Positions 15,893-40,866 of a stretch of 48,225 nt of DNA are shown in pieces; position 1 is the stretch's first letter, and each line of letters begins with the position of its first letter. The stretch spans positions 1 through 48,225 of the forward strand of contig CAMBRL010000008.1 in the NCBI GenBank assembly GCA_945870105.1. The letters run 5' to 3'. A program made the translations under genes and the position numbers. Below the pieces are notes generated by a model. That model was not told the origin of the DNA. It saw only the letters and a list, made by a program, of their open reading frames with translations, and did not search any database. The stretch comes from Chitinophaga pinensis. GTDB taxonomy: Bacteria > Bacteroidota > Bacteroidia > SXHM01.

Positions 15893-16318
15893 ATGACTGA
15901 GCTAATTCCACTTAAATTTTTAGCCATTGAAGGTGACGGGACTCATCTTTTAATAGCCATAATAATAAACGGAAAGAAAGCGAACATGCTGGTGGATACA
16001 GGCGCTTCACGAACGGTGTTTGACATTAACAGCATTTCAAAATTTACAAGTAAAAAGAAGTTTGGCAAGAACCAACAACTCAGCACCGGACTTGGTACCA
16101 ACACCATGCAAAGCCATAATACTATTTTAAAAAAAGTAAAAATCGGCAAGCTGAAAATCGAAAACTTTGAAGCCATTTTGCTTGACCTGAAACATGTGAA
16201 TGAAAGCTACGAAAAAATAGGGCTTGGCACTATTGACGGGGTTCTTGGTGGAGAAATATTAGTCAACTTTAAAGCTGTGATTGATTACGGCAAAAAACAA
16301 ATGAAGTTGAAATGGTAG
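15893..16318 (+). CDS. Retropepsin-like aspartic protease domain protein
   Basis: The 141-residue protein is a single retropepsin-like domain: the active-site triad Asp35-Thr36-Gly37 in MLVDTGASRTVFD, and the hydrophobic-hydrophobic-Gly flap support IDGVLGGEIL near 115-125. Such proteins work as dimers. No signal peptide or membrane segment is seen, so it is probably cytoplasmic. Its last 7 bases overlap the start of the HisH-like gene, which suggests co-translation, although no functional link between a retropepsin and sugar amidination is known to me. It might equally be an unrelated gene that happens to sit at the head of the operon. Confidence 0.8.
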   Translation: MTELIPLKFLAIEGDGTHLLIAIIINGKKANMLVDTGASRTVFDINSISKFTSKKKFGKNQQLSTGLGTNTMQSHNTILKKVKIGKLKIENFEAILLDLKHVNESYEKIGLGTIDGVLGGEILVNFKAVIDYGKKQMKLKW

Positions 16319-16926
16319 TTGTTATTGATTACGGAATGGGAAACCTTGGCTCAGTTGCCAACATCATTAAAAAGGTGGGGCATTCATGCACCGTTACATC
16401 CGATTTATCACTTATTGAGAAAGCTGAGAAACTAATCCTACCCGGTGTCGGCTCATTTGATAACGGAATGGAAAACCTTAACAGGCTTGGTATTTCTGAA
16501 GTTATTACCAAAAAAGTTATGCAGGACAAAACGCCCATTCTTGGAATTTGTCTGGGTGCACAACTGATGTTAGAATCAAGCGAGGAAGGAAAGTTAGCGG
16601 GATTAAATTGGGTAAAAGGGAAAGTGATAAAATTCAGGTTTGCAGAAAAACAAATTGATCAACGCATACCACACATGGGTTGGAATCAGATAGTGATTAA
16701 TAAGCAGAATCCTATTTTCAACAACATGTATGAAAACCCGAAATTCTATTTTGTACACTCCTATCATTTTCAATTAGAGAATGAAGCCGACACGCTCACT
16801 ACAACAGATTACGGTTATGAATTTGCATCAGGATTTTCAAAAGAGAATATTACTGGATTGCAATTTCATCCTGAGAAAAGTCATAAGTATGGCATGTTGG
16901 TTTACAAGAATTTCTTAGAAAGCTGA
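16312..16926 (+). CDS. HisH-like glutamine amidotransferase (WbuY type)
   Basis: The 204-residue class I glutamine amidotransferase has the nucleophile Cys80 in ILGICLGAQ and the His186/Glu188 pair in LQFHPEKS, so it should release ammonia from glutamine. It is adjacent to a HisF-like partner but to no other histidine gene, and the motif GKVIKF...RIPHMGWN resembles the HisH homologues of O-antigen loci (WbuY, HisH2 of the WbpG system). There the ammonia is passed via the HisF-like protein to an N-acetyl-sugar amidotransferase that forms an acetamidino group. It overlaps the gene before by 7 bases and the gene after by one base (TGATG). Confidence 0.85.
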   Translation: MVVVIDYGMGNLGSVANIIKKVGHSCTVTSDLSLIEKAEKLILPGVGSFDNGMENLNRLGISEVITKKVMQDKTPILGICLGAQLMLESSEEGKLAGLNWVKGKVIKFRFAEKQIDQRIPHMGWNQIVINKQNPIFNNMYENPKFYFVHSYHFQLENEADTLTTTDYGYEFASGFSKENITGLQFHPEKSHKYGMLVYKNFLES

Positions 16927-17687
16927 TGCGAAAAAATATTCGTGTAATACCTGTTTTATTAAGCGACAGCGAGGGAAGCCTTGTCAAAACAAGGAAATTC
17001 AAAGACCCTGTTTACATTGGCGACCCGTTTAATGCTGTTAAAATCTTCAATGAAAAAGAAGTTGATGAGCTCATTTATCTTGACATCACCGCAAGCGCGC
17101 AAAAACGCAAACCAAATCTTTCCTACATCTCCGAACTGGCCTCTGAATGTTTTATGCCTTTGTGTTACGGTGGCGGAATAACAACCTTTGAAGAAATAAA
17201 AGCCATCCTAAAAGCAGGAGTGGAAAAAATTTCTCTCAATGCTTCAAATTTCAGCAACATCAATTTATTGCGTGAAGGCGCAGAAAAATTCGGTAGTTCT
17301 GCAATGGTTGCCGGAATTGATGTAAAGACAAATTTGTTTGGCAAACATTACGTTTACAATCATGCTGAGAAAAAACTGACCAACCACACTCCTGCCGAAT
17401 TTGCTGCTTACCTAGCAAAAAACGGTGCAGGCGAAATTTTACTCAACTCTGTTGACCGCGATAGTGCTATGGAAGGTTATGACACTGCATTAATTAAGTC
17501 CGTTGCACAAGCAGTAAATGTTCCGCTTATTGTTTGTGGTGGCGCAGGTAAAATTGCAGACTTCAAAACTGCATTGGATGCAGGAGCATCTGCATTAGCT
17601 GCGGGTAGTATGTTTGTTTTTCAGGGGAAGCACAGAGCGGTGTTGATTAATTATCCGGGGCAGAAGGATTTACTTAGTCTGGCTTAA
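16926..17687 (+). CDS. HisF-like ammonia-channel subunit (WbuZ type)
   Basis: The 253-residue TIM-barrel protein matches HisF over its length (IYLDITAS, CYGGGI, LNSVDRDS, VCGGAG). The first catalytic aspartate of true HisF (Asp11 in CLDVKDG of the Thermotoga enzyme) is replaced by Leu in IPVLLSDSEGSLVKT, while the second (IDVKT, Asp132 here) is kept. Loss of the first Asp argues against histidine synthesis. The opening VIPVLL...LVKTRKFK...YIGDPFNAVKIFNEKEVDELI is the form found in WbuZ-like proteins of O-antigen loci. Its 3' end overlaps the convergent glycosyltransferase gene by 14 bases. Confidence 0.85.
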   Translation: MRKNIRVIPVLLSDSEGSLVKTRKFKDPVYIGDPFNAVKIFNEKEVDELIYLDITASAQKRKPNLSYISELASECFMPLCYGGGITTFEEIKAILKAGVEKISLNASNFSNINLLREGAEKFGSSAMVAGIDVKTNLFGKHYVYNHAEKKLTNHTPAEFAAYLAKNGAGEILLNSVDRDSAMEGYDTALIKSVAQAVNVPLIVCGGAGKIADFKTALDAGASALAAGSMFVFQGKHRAVLINYPGQKDLLSLA

Positions 17688-34774: not shown

Positions 34775-35452
34775 ATGGCAACTGTTAAAGTTGGAAATTC
34801 CGGGCTAAACCCTGTTCAGTTGGTGGCAAAAGCCACCCTGATTCAAGGGAAAATGACCGGAAATGCAAATTTTCTCACTCCCATTCCTGATCTTGCGACC
34901 TTTCTTGCGGCCATTACCGCACTGACCAGCGCTATAAGCGCAGCCAGTGGCTTTGACCGCAATCTGATAATCGCCAGAAATCTGAGGGATAAAGAGTTGA
35001 GATTGCTGATTAAACAACTTGCTGCCTATGTTCAGAGCGCAAGCAATGGAGATGCTGATAAGATCATCAGTTCGGGTTTTGAACTGAGGAAGCAACGCGG
35101 ACCAAAAGTCCAAATGACACAGGTGCAAAACCTTGTGGCAGAAAGTACGCTTACCGAAGGCGAAATCGATTTGAGCTGGGATCCTGTTTCAGCAGCCAAA
35201 GCTTTTGAGCTTGAATATAAAGATCTGGGCTTCACCGGTGATGGTGGAAATGCGAGCATACCTCCGGGTATGCCCGGCACGCCTACCCCCGGTGCGGGAA
35301 ACGGAGAATGGAAACATCTTCAATCCGTTACTGCATCAAGGTACCTGGCAACAGGCCTCATCAGTGGTCACATCTATCAGTTCCGTGTAAGGGCGCTTGG
35401 CGCCACTGGTCACGGAGCTATGAGTGACATAGCTCAGGTAAGAGCAAGATAG
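34775..35452 (+). CDS. Fibronectin type III domain protein
   Basis: The 225-residue protein has no signal peptide. Residues 1-110 form an Ala/Leu-rich helical part (DLATFLAAITALTSAISAASG, then KELRLLIKQLAAYVQSASNGDADKIISSGFELRKQ). Residues about 115-225 match a fibronectin type III fold: GEIDLSWDPVSAAKAFELEYKD and GLISGHIYQFRVRALGATGHGAMSD. A Pro/Gly-rich loop (SIPPGMPGTPTPGAGNGE) lies inside the FN3 domain. Proteins of this design occur in Bacteroidota but I know no function. A good terminator follows at 35471, so it is a single gene separate from the sugar operons. Confidence 0.82.
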   Translation: MATVKVGNSGLNPVQLVAKATLIQGKMTGNANFLTPIPDLATFLAAITALTSAISAASGFDRNLIIARNLRDKELRLLIKQLAAYVQSASNGDADKIISSGFELRKQRGPKVQMTQVQNLVAESTLTEGEIDLSWDPVSAAKAFELEYKDLGFTGDGGNASIPPGMPGTPTPGAGNGEWKHLQSVTASRYLATGLISGHIYQFRVRALGATGHGAMSDIAQVRAR

Positions 35453-35470: not shown

Positions 35471-35510
35471 AAAAAGCAGTCCCGCAGAATTGGGGACTGC
35501 TTTTTTATTT
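35471..35510 (+). terminator. Intrinsic terminator after the FN3 gene
   Basis: The stem AAAAAGCAGTCCC (35471-35483) pairs with GGGACTGCTTTTT (35493-35505) and is followed by further T residues. It lies 18 bases after the FN3 stop codon. The next gene starts 30 bases further on and must have its own promoter or rely on read-through. Confidence 0.85.
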
Positions 35511-35540
35511 TTGCTATTTTCGCCACTTCATTATAAATTA

Positions 35541-36641
35541 ATGCTCAACAACAAAACAGTAGCTGTAGTAGTACCCGCTTACAACGAGGAAAAACAAATA
35601 GGCATGGTTATAGAAACCATGCCGGCATTTGTTGACCGCATTATTATTGTAAACGATTGCAGCAAAGACAAAACGGCTGATGTTGTACAATCTTATATTG
35701 AAAAGGACACCTCCCAAAAAACGACACTAAAAAACAAGCTGAAACAGGCTTTTGCAGCTAACCGCTATAACCGCGCTGACGAGGTTATCTATGAACAGGG
35801 TAAAGACGAAATCCGACTCTTTAATCCTTCTGAAGTTGTAAATAAAAACCCTGAAACCGATCGCATAATTTTAATTAACCACAAAGTAAATGGTGGTGTT
35901 GGGGGTGCTGTAGCAACTGGTTATAAATGGTGCAAAGACCATGATATTTACTGCACAGCAAAAATTGACGGTGATGGACAGATGGATCCTAATGAACTGG
36001 AAAGCATATGCCTCCCGGTTATAAACGATGAGGTGGATTATGTTAAAGGTAACAGATTAATACACAGAAGTGCCTGGCTTGTAATACCAAAAATTCGGTA
36101 TTTGGGCAATTCCATTTTATCAATTCTCACGAAAATTGCTTCCGGTTACTGGCATGTTTCTGATACCCAAACAGCATTTTCTGCTATTTCACTAAAAGCA
36201 TTACAAGGTATTCGACTTCATGAAATCTATCGTAGTTACGGCTATCCGAATGATATGCTTGTTAAGTTAAATATATCAATGTGCTCTATAAGGGAAGTTG
36301 CCATTAAACCGGTTTATGATGTTGGGGAAAACAGTAAAATGAAAATAGTTAAAGTCATTCCATTAATTTCTTGGCTTTTATTCAAATCCTTTTTTAAACG
36401 ACTTTGGATAAAATACCTGTTTCGTGATTTCCACCCATTATTTCTGCTTTATAATTTTGCATTTTTCTTGGGCATCATTTGGCTACCTTATCTATTTAAA
36501 GTTGCTCATTTAATTCATAATGGGGCACATGTATCATTCGAAACATTATTTGCATTTTCTTTTCTTGCATTTACATCTTTTCAATCGCTTCTATTTGCAA
36601 TGTGGATGGATATTCAGGATAATGAACGACTAAATAAATAA
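35541..36641 (+). CDS. Polyprenyl-phosphate-type GT2 glycosyltransferase
   Basis: The 366-residue protein has a GT2 core of the dolichol-phosphate-mannose-synthase type: VAVVVPAYNEEKQIGMVIETM, VNDCSKDKT (37-45), NGGVGGAVATGYKW and the metal site KIDGDGQMDP (131-140). Two or more hydrophobic segments follow (about 300-355). Between strands 2 and 3 it has an extra, basic stretch of about 45 residues (55-105) not usual for the family. Such enzymes load a sugar on a lipid carrier or act on it at the membrane. I chose the ATG at 35541; an upstream in-frame ATG at 35490 lies inside the terminator. Confidence 0.85.
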   Translation: MLNNKTVAVVVPAYNEEKQIGMVIETMPAFVDRIIIVNDCSKDKTADVVQSYIEKDTSQKTTLKNKLKQAFAANRYNRADEVIYEQGKDEIRLFNPSEVVNKNPETDRIILINHKVNGGVGGAVATGYKWCKDHDIYCTAKIDGDGQMDPNELESICLPVINDEVDYVKGNRLIHRSAWLVIPKIRYLGNSILSILTKIASGYWHVSDTQTAFSAISLKALQGIRLHEIYRSYGYPNDMLVKLNISMCSIREVAIKPVYDVGENSKMKIVKVIPLISWLLFKSFFKRLWIKYLFRDFHPLFLLYNFAFFLGIIWLPYLFKVAHLIHNGAHVSFETLFAFSFLAFTSFQSLLFAMWMDIQDNERLNK

Positions 36642-36642
36642 A

Positions 36643-37167
36643 ATGGGTATTCAACAAAAATCTTGGGGAACTATCCCTGTTGGACCTAAATCAAAAGGAA
36701 TAAAAATTTTTGGAGCATATTTCAGAAGGGTACTCCATAATATTGCAAGAAACTATGTTTTACTCCCATCCTGGAGATCTTGGTTGAACAGGAAGAGAGG
36801 CGTTGATATTGGAAGAAATGTCTTTTGGGGAAGCGATGTTTTTATAGATGATGCAGATCCTTCTCTTGTAAAAATAGAAGATAATGTAACCATTCTTGGT
36901 AGATCAACAATATTGGGCCACGCCTATTATCCCAAACATTTTAGTAAAGTGCTATCCTCTACATCAAAAAAAGAAGGCACCATAATAAAAAAAGGTTCTT
37001 ATGTTGGCATGGGCTGTATAATATTACCTGGAATTACAATTGGAGAGTACACAATTATTGGTGCCGGTTCGGTAGTTACAAAAGATATTCCACCATACTC
37101 ATTGGCTGTTGGTGTACCTGCAAAGGTTATAAAAAATATTTCAAAAGAAGACCTAATTCTCAATTGA
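36643..37167 (+). CDS. Hexapeptide-repeat O-acyltransferase
   Basis: The 174-residue protein has a left-handed beta-helix of hexapeptide repeats (GVDIGRNVFWGSDVFIDD ... VKIEDNVTILGRSTILGHAYYP ... GSYVGMGCIILPGITIGEYTIIGAGSVVTKDI) and the end VAVGVPAKVIKNI-like sequence (LAVGVPAKVI). This is the WbbJ/LacA-like acetyltransferase group, which acetylates a sugar from acetyl-CoA in the cytoplasm. It starts one base after the GT2 stop, so the two are co-expressed. Confidence 0.9.
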   Translation: MGIQQKSWGTIPVGPKSKGIKIFGAYFRRVLHNIARNYVLLPSWRSWLNRKRGVDIGRNVFWGSDVFIDDADPSLVKIEDNVTILGRSTILGHAYYPKHFSKVLSSTSKKEGTIIKKGSYVGMGCIILPGITIGEYTIIGAGSVVTKDIPPYSLAVGVPAKVIKNISKEDLILN

Positions 37168-37211: not shown

Positions 37212-39233
37212 ATGTGCGGTATTTTCGGAATTATAATAACAAAAGAATCTACGTTAATTAGTTACTATGAACGGATTTTAAAAGAATTGTTTTCACTATC
37301 CGAATCCAGAGGCAAAGAAGCTTCAGGACTTGCTATAAATAACGGAAAAGAACTGCGTTACCTGAAAAGCCCTTTCCCTGCATCGGATCTGGTTAAATCA
37401 GCTGTATTTAAAAATGAAGTTGATACACTGCTTGGTTCCGACAATTCATTTTTTACCACTATAGGTCACTCGCGCCTGGTAACCAATGGCTATGAGCAAT
37501 ACAATGAAAATAACCAGCCGGTAATCAAAAACAATCTTGCAGTAATACACAATGGCATTATTGTCAATGATACAGAGCTCTGGAAAAAATACAGTGATGA
37601 AGAAAGGTTATCGGGCTTAGATTCTGAAATAATCCCTACACTTCTTCGCAGATTTTTAAATCAGGGGTCTACACTGCAAACAGCTCTTTCCAATTTATAT
37701 AAAGAGATTTATGGAATGACTTCCATAGCAGTATTACCCTTTGAAAGCAAGAACCTGATTTTAGCCACCAACAATGGTTCGCTGTATTATGTAAGTTCTG
37801 AAGACAACAGCGCATTTGTCTTTGCCTCTGAACGTTTTATTCTTAATTCGCTTATTGAAAAACTTAAACTTGCTTCTGTTTTTTCAAAGCAAAACATCAA
37901 ACAACTGCCGGCTAATTATGCCTGCTCTGTAAATATCGAATCCAATACCGTTAATGTTTTAAGTCTGAGTACCACTTCAACGGACTTTAACAACCTGACT
38001 TCGGCTTCAAAAATATTATTACCTATTGAAATTACTGAAAAAGTAAGCAACAAGCATGTGCATATCAATACCAGCATGGAACACAGAGAGACAACTGTTC
38101 CAAAGGCATTTACGGACGAAGTTAATAGCAGAAACCTAAGAATAGCGAGCCTTAATCGTTGCACCAAGTGTATTCTGCCTGAAACATTTCCTTTTATTGA
38201 ATATGATAGTACAGGAGTGTGCAACTACTGCAACAATTATCAACCCTTAAAATTCAAAGGCGCTGAAAACTTTAAACTTCTTCTTGACAGCTACCGTTCC
38301 AAAGATGGCTCACCCGATTGCCTGATGCCTTTCAGTGGCGGACGCGACAGCAGCTATGCCCTACACTATGTAAAAAAAGAGTTAGGCATGAACCCTATAG
38401 CCTTTTCATACGACTGGGGTATGCTTACCGACCTTGCACGAAGAAATCAGGCACGGATGTGCGGGAAACTTGGGGTGGAACATATTCTGATCTCGGCCGA
38501 TATCCGTAAAAAAAGGGATAACATCCGTAAAAATGTATCTGCCTGGCTGAAACGTCCTAACCTTGGAACCATTCCTCTGTTTATGGCAGGCGATAAGCAG
38601 TATTTTTATTATACCGATTTACTGAAAAAGCAAAACAATATCTCCATTGCCATTATGGGAGAGAATCCATTAGAAAAAACCGGATTTAAAACCGGATTTA
38701 GTGGTGTGAGGCAAAACAAAAATAACGGTTTTATGGCCTATGATATTTCCACATTAGGAAAACTTCAAATGGGGCTCTTTTATCTGAAGCAATACATCCT
38801 GAATCCTGCTCTTATTAATTCCTCCATAACAGATACCTTTTCAGCCTTTATCTCCTACTATGGGCTGACCCGTAATTATGTAAACATTTTTGATTACCTT
38901 CCTTGGGAAGAAGAAAAACTTGAAAAAACTCTGATCAATGAATACGATTGGGAGACGGACCCGGGAACAAAAACAACCTGGCGTATTGGTGACGGAACCG
39001 CTGCTTTCTACAATTATATTTATTACATGGTGGCAGGATTTACTGAAAACGACACCTTCCGCAGTAATCAGATACGGGAGGGTTCACTAACCCGCGAAAA
39101 AGCGCTTGCAAAAACAATTATTGAAAATCAGCAAAGATGGGATTCTATTCAATGGTACTGTAATACAATCGGAGTTGATTTTGAGAAAACAATAAAAATA
39201 ATTAATAGAATACCTGTTTTATATGAAAAGTAA
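37212..39233 (+). CDS. Class II glutamine amidotransferase fused to WbuX-type N-acetyl-sugar amidotransferase
   Basis: The 673-residue protein starts MCGIFGII, with Cys2 as the Ntn nucleophile, and has SRGKEASGLA (32-41), GHSRLVTNG (85-93) and VIHNGIIVND (111-120): a complete class II glutaminase (1 to about 230). After a linker, residues 315-640 match the N-acetyl-sugar amidotransferases WbuX/WbpG: paired cysteines Cys317/Cys320 and Cys337/Cys340, then the ATP PP-loop SGGRDSS (375-381), DWGMLTDLARRNQARM and MGENPLEKTGF. It should use glutamine and ATP to turn an N-acetyl into an acetamidino group without a partner. It overlaps the next gene by 11 bases. Confidence 0.87.
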   Translation: MCGIFGIIITKESTLISYYERILKELFSLSESRGKEASGLAINNGKELRYLKSPFPASDLVKSAVFKNEVDTLLGSDNSFFTTIGHSRLVTNGYEQYNENNQPVIKNNLAVIHNGIIVNDTELWKKYSDEERLSGLDSEIIPTLLRRFLNQGSTLQTALSNLYKEIYGMTSIAVLPFESKNLILATNNGSLYYVSSEDNSAFVFASERFILNSLIEKLKLASVFSKQNIKQLPANYACSVNIESNTVNVLSLSTTSTDFNNLTSASKILLPIEITEKVSNKHVHINTSMEHRETTVPKAFTDEVNSRNLRIASLNRCTKCILPETFPFIEYDSTGVCNYCNNYQPLKFKGAENFKLLLDSYRSKDGSPDCLMPFSGGRDSSYALHYVKKELGMNPIAFSYDWGMLTDLARRNQARMCGKLGVEHILISADIRKKRDNIRKNVSAWLKRPNLGTIPLFMAGDKQYFYYTDLLKKQNNISIAIMGENPLEKTGFKTGFSGVRQNKNNGFMAYDISTLGKLQMGLFYLKQYILNPALINSSITDTFSAFISYYGLTRNYVNIFDYLPWEEEKLEKTLINEYDWETDPGTKTTWRIGDGTAAFYNYIYYMVAGFTENDTFRSNQIREGSLTREKALAKTIIENQQRWDSIQWYCNTIGVDFEKTIKIINRIPVLYEK

Positions 39234-39864
39234 AGAATTTGTGGGTTTTGAAGAACTAACAAAACAAGAATTATGGACTCTGTGCATGGCAGAGTATGAC
39301 AATGCAAATCCATTGGTGAAGTATCTGATAAATAATTTTTATACTAATCTTGAGCAGATTATTGAAAAAACTGGTGACTGCAAAAGTTATTTTGAAATTG
39401 GCTGCGGTGCCGGGGAATCGTCCAGAAGAATTCACAAAATGTTGTCTAAAAATAAAAGTTTTGAGGCAAGTGATTTTGATAAACGATATGTAGAACTATT
39501 AAATGAGAAGGAAATGCCTTTTCCTGTTAGTCAGCAATCGATTTATGAAATCCAGAAAGCCGACAATGCCTATGATTGTGTAATTTGTCTGGAGGTGATG
39601 GAACATTTGGAATACCCGGAGAAAGCGGTAAAAGAACTATTCAGGGTTGCTTCAAAAAGCGTCATTATTTCTGTACCCAATGAACCAATCTGGCGCATAT
39701 TAAATATGACACGGTTAAAATACCTTAAAGATTTTGGCAATACTCCCGGTCACATCAACCACTTCAGCTCAAACTCATTAAAGAAATTGACCGAACCATA
39801 TAGTAAAACTGTGCTAACGGTCAAACCAACTCCCTGGGTAATATTGCATGCTACAAAAAAATAA
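39223..39864 (+). CDS. Class I SAM-dependent methyltransferase
   Basis: The 213-residue protein carries FEIGCGAGESS (57-67), the SDFD acidic end of strand 2, YDCVICLEVMEHLEYPEKAVKELFRV and VIISVPNEPIW, typical of UbiE-like family 11 methyltransferases. It overlaps the amidotransferase fusion by 11 bases and is followed by a membrane protein after 18 bases, so it belongs to the same operon. The substrate could be the chain end or a lipid carrier; nothing in the sequence decides this. Confidence 0.86.
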   Translation: MKSKEFVGFEELTKQELWTLCMAEYDNANPLVKYLINNFYTNLEQIIEKTGDCKSYFEIGCGAGESSRRIHKMLSKNKSFEASDFDKRYVELLNEKEMPFPVSQQSIYEIQKADNAYDCVICLEVMEHLEYPEKAVKELFRVASKSVIISVPNEPIWRILNMTRLKYLKDFGNTPGHINHFSSNSLKKLTEPYSKTVLTVKPTPWVILHATKK

Positions 39865-39882: not shown

Positions 39883-40866
39883 TTGGCGAAAAAACTCTTT
39901 ACAATTTTTATTTCTTTCATAGCTGCCGGAGTATTATTATTTATCGGTTTTAAATTCTTTGTATCAGAAGCCCAACTAAAATTACTGTTCTCGATTTCAG
40001 TTTTTGAACATGTTACAGCTATAGCTTTTTGTTTAGTCAGTTTTATCATTTCTGGGTTTGAACTCAGGTACATTTATAGTCGTAATTCTCAATTAAAACT
40101 AAGCAATTACGAAATCATTTCCCTGCCCGTAAGCATGAATTTATGGGGCTATCTGATACCATTCCAGGGTGCTTTTCTTTATTTAATAGCCTACCTGAAA
40201 CTAAAGCATAAAATTTCCGTCATTAACACTACCTACATTTACATTTATGTTTTCCTGCTTTCATTAAGCATTAGCGGGTTGCTTGGAATTATATTTTATT
40301 TTAATTCCCCTTCAGTTTCCATTCTCTTTTTATATTTATCTATTCTCTTATTAATCAATCCGGTTATTATTTTTTATAGTAATAAAGCATTGGGGAAGAT
40401 TAAATTTTCTAACGTTCCATTTCTAAGGAAAATAAAAGACACAATTGATCAAACGATTAACCAAATGAGTACTTTATTTCAGGATAAACATGTAACTATT
40501 ACTATGATAGGCTTTAATCTGCTATCAACCTTGATTTATGTAGCCTGGTCATATTGGGTGGTAGTACGTTTTGACCTACCTATATCTTTTTTTGCAATTT
40601 TAATAATGTCATTTTTACTAAAAATCACATTATTATTGAAATTCACGCCAGGGAATCTGGGATTAATTCAACTTGCTTCCGGAGGAATAATTGCCCTGCT
40701 AGGGGGTAACGCATCTGACGGTTTTCTAATTTCTTTATTTCAATCATTAACCTATATGCTAATTGCATTTTCGTTAGGCACCATCTTTTCGCTTATTAAC
40801 ATGAAATATTTTAGCTGGAAATCGATGGAATCAATGCTACTTAATAAGAAAAGCATACAAAATTAA
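39883..40866 (+). CDS. Flippase-like membrane protein (LPG synthase membrane-region family)
   Basis: The 327-residue protein has about eight hydrophobic segments and starts at TTG (39883), since no ATG precedes the first membrane helix. The region LLLKFTPGNLGLIQLASGGIIALLGG resembles the conserved TPGGLG..E segment of the AglD/lysylphosphatidylglycerol-synthase membrane family, many of whose members sit in glycosylation loci and are thought to move or hold lipid-linked sugars. No synthase domain is attached. With the DPM-like GT2 enzymes in this locus it could help deliver polyprenyl-phosphate sugars to the periplasm (inferred). Confidence 0.75.
   Translation: MAKKLFTIFISFIAAGVLLFIGFKFFVSEAQLKLLFSISVFEHVTAIAFCLVSFIISGFELRYIYSRNSQLKLSNYEIISLPVSMNLWGYLIPFQGAFLYLIAYLKLKHKISVINTTYIYIYVFLLSLSISGLLGIIFYFNSPSVSILFLYLSILLLINPVIIFYSNKALGKIKFSNVPFLRKIKDTIDQTINQMSTLFQDKHVTITMIGFNLLSTLIYVAWSYWVVVRFDLPISFFAILIMSFLLKITLLLKFTPGNLGLIQLASGGIIALLGGNASDGFLISLFQSLTYMLIAFSLGTIFSLINMKYFSWKSMESMLLNKKSIQN

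Follow-up and report, generated by a model that had tools for sequence, protein, structure and literature searches.

The window, a stretch of 48,225 nucleotides, contains on its + strand an ORF (37212..39233; 673 amino acids, ATG start) in which a class II (Ntn) glutaminase at the N terminus is followed in the same chain by a PP-loop domain of the N-acetyl sugar amidotransferase (NASAT)/WbuX superfamily at the C terminus. The assignment is based on the ORF, on domain searches, and on 21 further full-length homologues. We consider it probable, at roughly 60%, that the product is a self-contained, glutamine-dependent and ATP-using amidotransferase that acts on an N-acetyl sugar destined for a surface glycan. 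Confidence differs among the parts of this proposal: glutamine-dependent amido transfer inside one chain is very likely, and the odds that the product is specifically an acetamidino sugar are about even. The known acetamidino systems seem to need three proteins. The interpretation given in a preliminary description of this gene, namely a sugar amidotransferase of the WbuX type that produces its own ammonia, is partly supported by the data presented below.

A class II glutaminase and a NASAT-superfamily synthase in one chain

The glutaminase domain spans residues 1-245 (37212..37946, + strand) and is also seen in the AlphaFold model. In Pfam, it was matched by GATase_7 (E 6.7e-13) and GATase_6 (E 1.3e-9), both above their gathering scores, and the NCBIfam models matched were the GlmS-type model with 74 bits (E 7.2e-21), PurF with 52 bits, and AsnB with 32 bits. 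Aligned with the GlmS encoded in the same genome, the domain showed a one-to-one match of Cys2, Arg33-Gly34, His86, Arg88, Thr91, His113-Asn114-Gly115, Asp137, and Glu139. The features that define class II are among them, namely, the N-terminal cysteine nucleophile (C2), R88, the oxyanion hole formed by N114-G115, and D137 for glutamine. The claim of a complete Ntn glutaminase was thus borne out, and the catalytic set is complete in 21 of the 22 full-length fusions. The layout had also been said to copy that of asparagine synthetase B (AsnB); this is correct for the domain order but not for the glutaminase sequence, which is nearer to that of GlmS, with 74 bits compared with 32 bits for AsnB.

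The only fusion with an incomplete catalytic set is that of locus L028 (7950-9944), which has lost Cys2 and its neighbors (Cys2 to Ser, SRGKE to SGDEG, and GHSR to GQSR); its synthase is intact, and its genome lacks HisF2. A further locus, L032 (7953-9399), contains a 96-amino-acid glutaminase fragment adjoining an intact 401-amino-acid synthase, in a genome where the fusion is additionally present as a full-length copy. Since L028 and L032 retain a synthase in the absence of a sound glutaminase, the latter is not always essential.

The synthase domain comprises residues 313-673 (38148..39230, + strand), and its assignment is based on the WbuX model TIGR03573, on similarity in sequence and fold to the Legionella N-acetyl sugar amidotransferase (PDB 8wex), and on the clade tree. 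In NCBIfam, TIGR03573 matched residues 316-656 with 138.1 bits (E 4.6e-40), a score that does not reach the curated cut-off of 203.2 bits. All other PP-loop families scored below 16 bits against the window protein, with LarE (15.7 bits) as the runner-up, and WbuX is therefore by a wide margin the nearest named family, in agreement with the initial assignment. The WbuX model matched all 22 members, and the scores of the other full-length fusions searched, 95 to 154 bits, were also below the cut-off. Several alternative identities were discarded. QueC (PF06508) obtained 14.4 bits against a gathering score of 22, and neither QueC nor LarE nor ArgG reached 16 bits with the window protein. Membership in the AsnB family was likewise rejected, as Pfam returned no Asn_synthase match and the AsnB model covered the glutaminase half alone (residues 2-214).

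Three sequence elements of the synthase are invariant in the 22 full-length members: the cysteine pairs Cys317-x2-Cys320 (38160..38171, + strand), a predicted zinc site, and Cys337-x2-Cys340 (38220..38231, + strand), and the PP-loop SGGRDS at residues 375-380 (38334..38351, + strand), which is the ATP pyrophosphatase signature. They correspond to the SGGxDS and tetracysteine CxxC...[GN]xCxxC motifs of the NASAT/WbuX proteins, and zinc has been reported in LpNASAT (PMC10607449). Consequently, all motifs on which the proposal of a one-chain fusion had been based (Cys2, GHSR, HNG, two CxxC pairs, and SGGRDS) are present, and the fusion itself is confirmed; these motifs are kept through the 22 full-length members, with a degenerate glutaminase in one. 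The domain search of the full chain that had been suggested as a check accordingly returned GATase_7/GATase_6 and TIGR03573.

The motif SGG.DS is common to all three NASAT clades (two stand-alone and one fused), and the shared core consists of C320, G335, C337, C340, S375-G377, D379, S380, P395, N412, G483, Y562, and R628. However, positions 607-608 are Lys-Phe in both stand-alone clades and Val-Ala in the fused clade, and an insert at 445-452 is peculiar to the latter. Judged from these residues, the acceptor, or the way in which it is bound, may differ. The initial designation as a complete WbuX-like domain is consequently accurate for the motifs but not for completeness, given a score of 138 instead of 203 bits and the absence of several residues conserved in both clades of stand-alone NASATs. 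Similarly, the relationship to the NASAT superfamily holds, and a WbuX-type reaction would be an extrapolation from a relative, as the fused proteins form a sister clade that scores below the cut-off and lacks the Lys-Phe pair.

Predicted structures were obtained with AlphaFold for the 673-amino-acid window protein (pLDDT 87.0, pTM 0.88; confident over both domains, with the glutaminase mostly above a pLDDT of 85) and for the 604-amino-acid Marinobacter form (pLDDT 86.6, pTM 0.88; both domains confident). The pTM of 0.88 in both models suggests that the two domains are packed confidently against each other. A sequence search of the PDB with the 673-amino-acid protein retrieved 8wex at the top (E 2.9e-13), followed by GlmS and PurF, which matched the N terminus. 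A Foldseek search against the PDB also placed 8wex first, followed by GlmS/GFAT, AsnB, and beta-lactam synthetase; the query-normalized TM scores were 0.22 to 0.36 and were thus so low that, among the listed matches, no solved structure corresponds to the whole arrangement.

These comparisons bear on the possibility that the self-contained enzyme amidates a carboxyl group, converting a uronic acid into a uronamide or modifying an acyl substituent, and is more AsnB-like than WbuX-like. The domain order of AsnB, its significant Foldseek match (at a low TM score), and conserved C-terminal residues that differ from those of both stand-alone NASAT clades are consistent with this idea, as is the presence of AsnB-type amidotransferases in the same clusters. 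Furthermore, acceptor types are loosely assigned in this field; in Tannerella forsythia, a predicted AsnB-type protein of 605 amino acids was linked to the acetamidino step purely by prediction (PMC6120980). Nevertheless, the synthase belongs to the NASAT superfamily and carries a cysteine site that is absent from AsnB, and the separate AsnB genes found in some clusters with a fused gene could cover the carboxamide role. Carboxyl amidation thus appears unlikely, if still a serious competitor of action on an N-acetyl sugar.

Distribution and phylogeny of the fused family

In total, we gathered 22 full-length members, including that of the window, from several phyla and from plasmids, so that the search for the same fusion in other genomes, proposed as a further check, was successful. 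Among 60 genomes searched for relatives, full-length fusions were found in other families of the class and within the genus, where the identities were 83, 65, and 46%. At the level of the phylum, 7 of 396 genomes matched, including that of the window, and one of these (G102) harbors only a C-terminal remnant. A scan of GTDB contigs identified 11 loci labeled as Bacteroidia, Flavobacteriales, Flavobacterium, Bacteroidales, Atribacteria, Neomarinimicrobiota, Raymondbacteria, Melioribacteraceae, Falkowbacteria, Ignavibacteriaceae, and Marinobacter; these are metagenome-assembled genomes (MAGs), and single labels may be wrong. Complete plasmids that encode the fusion were found in Solidesulfovibrio carbinolicus (44%) and in two Agrobacterium strains (38%). 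At locus L055 (9017-9901), residues 435-672 of the fusion are all that is left, apparently as a broken copy.

A chance event or an assembly artifact was discarded as the origin of the fusion, which is present in 22 full-length proteins, including those of single-contig genomes and complete plasmids. The recurrence of this architecture in the genus (83 and 65% identity), as well as in complete plasmids of cultured bacteria, argues against an artifact. The plasmid copies are annotated as "7-cyano-7-deazaguanine synthase," "hypothetical protein," and "glucosamine 6-phosphate synthetase." The fused family is therefore widespread, sparse, and without a name in plasmid records. In a search confined to open-access papers, no description of a glutaminase-NASAT fusion was found. 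The passages retrieved from the closest paper, which deals with the QueC family, mention N-sugar amidotransferases of 300 to 400 amino acids and a subcluster of multi-domain proteins of 900 to 2603 amino acids, and the glutaminase-NASAT fusion is not described in these passages (PMC13329287).

A phylogenetic tree of the synthase domain was built from 58 proteins, 23 of which belong to the fused clade, and was rooted at the midpoint; the program warned that long branches meet. These 23 synthase domains form one clade with a support of 100/99, recovered in 100% of the bootstrap trees, on a stem of 2.61 changes per site. This clade is placed outside both stand-alone clades, one of which is found mostly with AglZ/HisF2, while the other holds the LpNASAT-like members. 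The fused clade has one origin, and its unity is settled despite the long branches. Taken together, the scores below the cut-off, the separate clade on a long branch, and the lack of a lysine that is invariant in both stand-alone clades indicate that the fused proteins are a sister family and not WbuX proper.

Ammonia supply and the HisH/HisF2 genes

Approximately 20 kb upstream of the fused gene, the window also encodes a HisH/HisF2 pair, which was absent from the preliminary description. It consists of a HisH-type class I glutaminase of an acetamidino-modification system (16312..16926, + strand; TIGR01855, 231 bits) and an AglZ/HisF2-family acetamidino modification protein (16926..17687, + strand; NF038364, 340 bits with a cut-off of 310). 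The location of this pair (16312-17687) in the same window raises the question of whether it also feeds the fused enzyme, in which case the fused glutaminase would be accessory or regulatory. Such a role would agree with the clusters of Marinobacter (L033), G438, and Agrobacterium, which hold HisH/HisF2 alongside the fusion, and with the synthases of L028 and L032 that lack an intact glutaminase.

However, the distribution of HisF2 argues for the opposite. HisF2 was absent from all nine genomes in which fused-clade enzymes are the only NASAT type (G057, G059, G063, G065, G067 = G116, G068, G069, G197, and G307), whereas 8 of the 9 genera that possess a stand-alone NASAT also have HisF2 or a HisF-type gene adjoining this NASAT (Fisher P = 4e-4). 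A strict count, limited to HisF2 above the cut-off, resulted in 6/9 versus 0/9 (P = 0.009); both comparisons come from a small sample in which relatedness was partly controlled and some MAGs are incomplete. HisH/HisF2 as an obligate partner of the fusion was discarded on this co-occurrence. The difference between the two groups is also in line with the contrast drawn initially with stand-alone NASATs that use HisH/HisF. Furthermore, the clusters of Agrobacterium, Marinobacter, and G438 each contain a separate stand-alone NASAT, the genome with the degenerate L028 copy also lacks HisF2, and the glutaminase residues are kept in 21 of 22 members.

In the genome of the window (G000), a NASAT of a stand-alone clade, fused to a GT4 glycosyltransferase, is encoded on contig C22. 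Two genomes of the same genus (G003 and G006) retain HisF2 and the GT4-NASAT and have no fusion with a glutaminase, so that the HisH/HisF2 pair of the window is independent of this fusion. Most likely, this pair serves a different NASAT of the genome and not the fused enzyme, and we regard its feeding the fused enzyme as very improbable. In the simplest reading, HisH/HisF2 supply the stand-alone NASAT and the fusion provides its own ammonia; the in-chain supply is thus supported indirectly.

The GT4-NASAT fusion, of about 800 amino acids and belonging to a stand-alone clade, occurs genus-wide (L001:1402-3792 on contig C22; L018, L019, L069, L070, and L073), and it could couple sugar transfer to amidation. 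A different combination was observed at L058 (5686-8895), where HisF and a stand-alone NASAT are encoded next to a protein of 1068 amino acids. In this protein, a class I glutaminase resembling HisH (residues 475-628) is combined with glycosyltransferase group 1 domains.

Gene neighborhood, proposed function, and comparison with known systems

The fused gene is located in a series of + strand genes. It is preceded by a GT2 glycosyltransferase with a hydrophobic C terminus that resembles polyprenyl-phosphate-sugar synthases (35490..36641; Pfam Glycos_transf_2, 7e-18; AglJ 45 and PpgS 44 bits, both below the cut-off) and by a NeuD/PglB-like hexapeptide-repeat acetyltransferase (36643..37167; Pfam Hexapep, 1.7e-12; TIGR03570, 69 bits against a cut-off of 160.8). 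It is followed by a SAM-dependent methyltransferase that overlaps its end by 11 bases (39223..39864; Pfam Methyltransf_23, 9.5e-12) and by a flippase-like membrane protein with an LPG_synthase_TM region (39883..40866; PF03706, 27.5 bits against a gathering score of 33.4). A GT2 homologue is the commonest neighbor of the fused gene, found in 12 of 21 distinct loci and directly upstream in 7, with gaps of -1 to 12 bases; in the Solidesulfovibrio copy, the GT2 gene lies 27 bases ahead of the fusion. A methyltransferase homologue is directly downstream also in L039. The polysaccharide cluster of the window additionally encodes a small fibronectin type III protein (34775-35452), which is conserved in the nearest relative (L023).

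The neighbors of the short-form group include a GT4 glycosyltransferase, a sugar-phosphate transferase, a NeuD/PglB acetyltransferase, a DegT aminotransferase, a PseB-like dehydratase, and WecB. The short form of L033 is adjoined by a UDP-GlcNAc 2-epimerase, a PseB-like dehydratase, an aminotransferase, and a NeuD/PglB acetyltransferase, and similar genes are annotated in Agrobacterium. These neighbors represent machinery for N-acetylated amino sugars, which fits an N-acetyl sugar as the acceptor. All loci annotated in detail are located among glycosyltransferase or polysaccharide genes, which is difficult to reconcile with action on a non-glycan precursor or with the transfer of sulfur or another nucleophile, as in other PP-loop enzymes. 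The diversity of PP-loop chemistry and a weak similarity to LarE, TilS, and QueC speak for the latter; nevertheless, the in-chain class II glutaminase points to ammonia as the nucleophile, and WbuX is the nearest family by more than 100 bits. We consider this alternative highly improbable.

For the proposed sugar amidotransferase, the following sequence of events is proposed. After removal of Met1, Cys2 of the Ntn glutaminase would free ammonia from glutamine, and the ammonia would move, probably by channeling, within the same chain to the zinc-binding PP-loop domain. The latter would adenylate a carbonyl oxygen, converting ATP into AMP and PPi; this oxygen most likely belongs to the N-acetyl group of an amino sugar linked to a nucleotide or a lipid. 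The nitrogen of the ammonia would then replace the oxygen to generate an acetamidino (N-acetimidoyl) sugar, which the neighboring polyprenyl-phosphate-type GT2 and other glycosyltransferases may introduce into a glycan, presumably at the cell surface. A broader scenario is put forward tentatively and is, in our view, somewhat more doubtful than the specific acetamidino product: the fused proteins would be a third, previously undescribed lineage of the NASAT superfamily that arose by an ancient single gain of an Ntn glutaminase in replacement of HisH/HisF, with an acceptor unlike those of WbuX and WbpG and, as the product, a sugar amidine or amide to which no enzyme has been assigned so far.

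The properties of NASATs were described as little known in a 2023 structure paper (PMC10607449). WbuX of Escherichia coli O145, WbpG of Pseudomonas aeruginosa, and LpNASAT (8WEX) share with the fusion the SGGxDS and CxxC...GxCxxC motifs, the fold, and the location in polysaccharide clusters. However, they are stand-alone or GT4-fused chains that are associated with separate HisH and HisF-like proteins, whereas the fusion has an in-chain glutaminase of class II, a class different from that of HisH. The WbuX/WbuY/WbuZ and WbpG/HisH2/HisF2 systems have the same presumed purpose, the placement of glutamine nitrogen onto an N-acetyl sugar, but rely on three chains, among them a TIM-barrel partner and a triad-type glutaminase of class I, in contrast to the Ntn glutaminase and the absence of a barrel in the fusion. 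AsnB, beta-lactam synthetase, and TsnB9 also have a class II glutaminase-type domain ahead of a PP-loop ATP-pyrophosphatase domain; the fusion departs from AsnB in its synthase, which is of a different PP-loop family and has a four-cysteine site. Among named families, GlmS is the one nearest to the glutaminase domain, with which it has the catalytic residues in common, but it carries a sugar isomerase domain instead of a PP-loop domain and does not use ATP. This comparison suggests that ammonia supply was solved twice by evolution, once through a triad glutaminase of class I together with a barrel and once through an Ntn glutaminase of class II. It also provides an identity for proteins that are currently annotated as queuosine or glucosamine enzymes, and a single chain equipped with its own glutaminase offers a practical entry to the reconstitution of sugar amidine formation and to the study of ammonia delivery.
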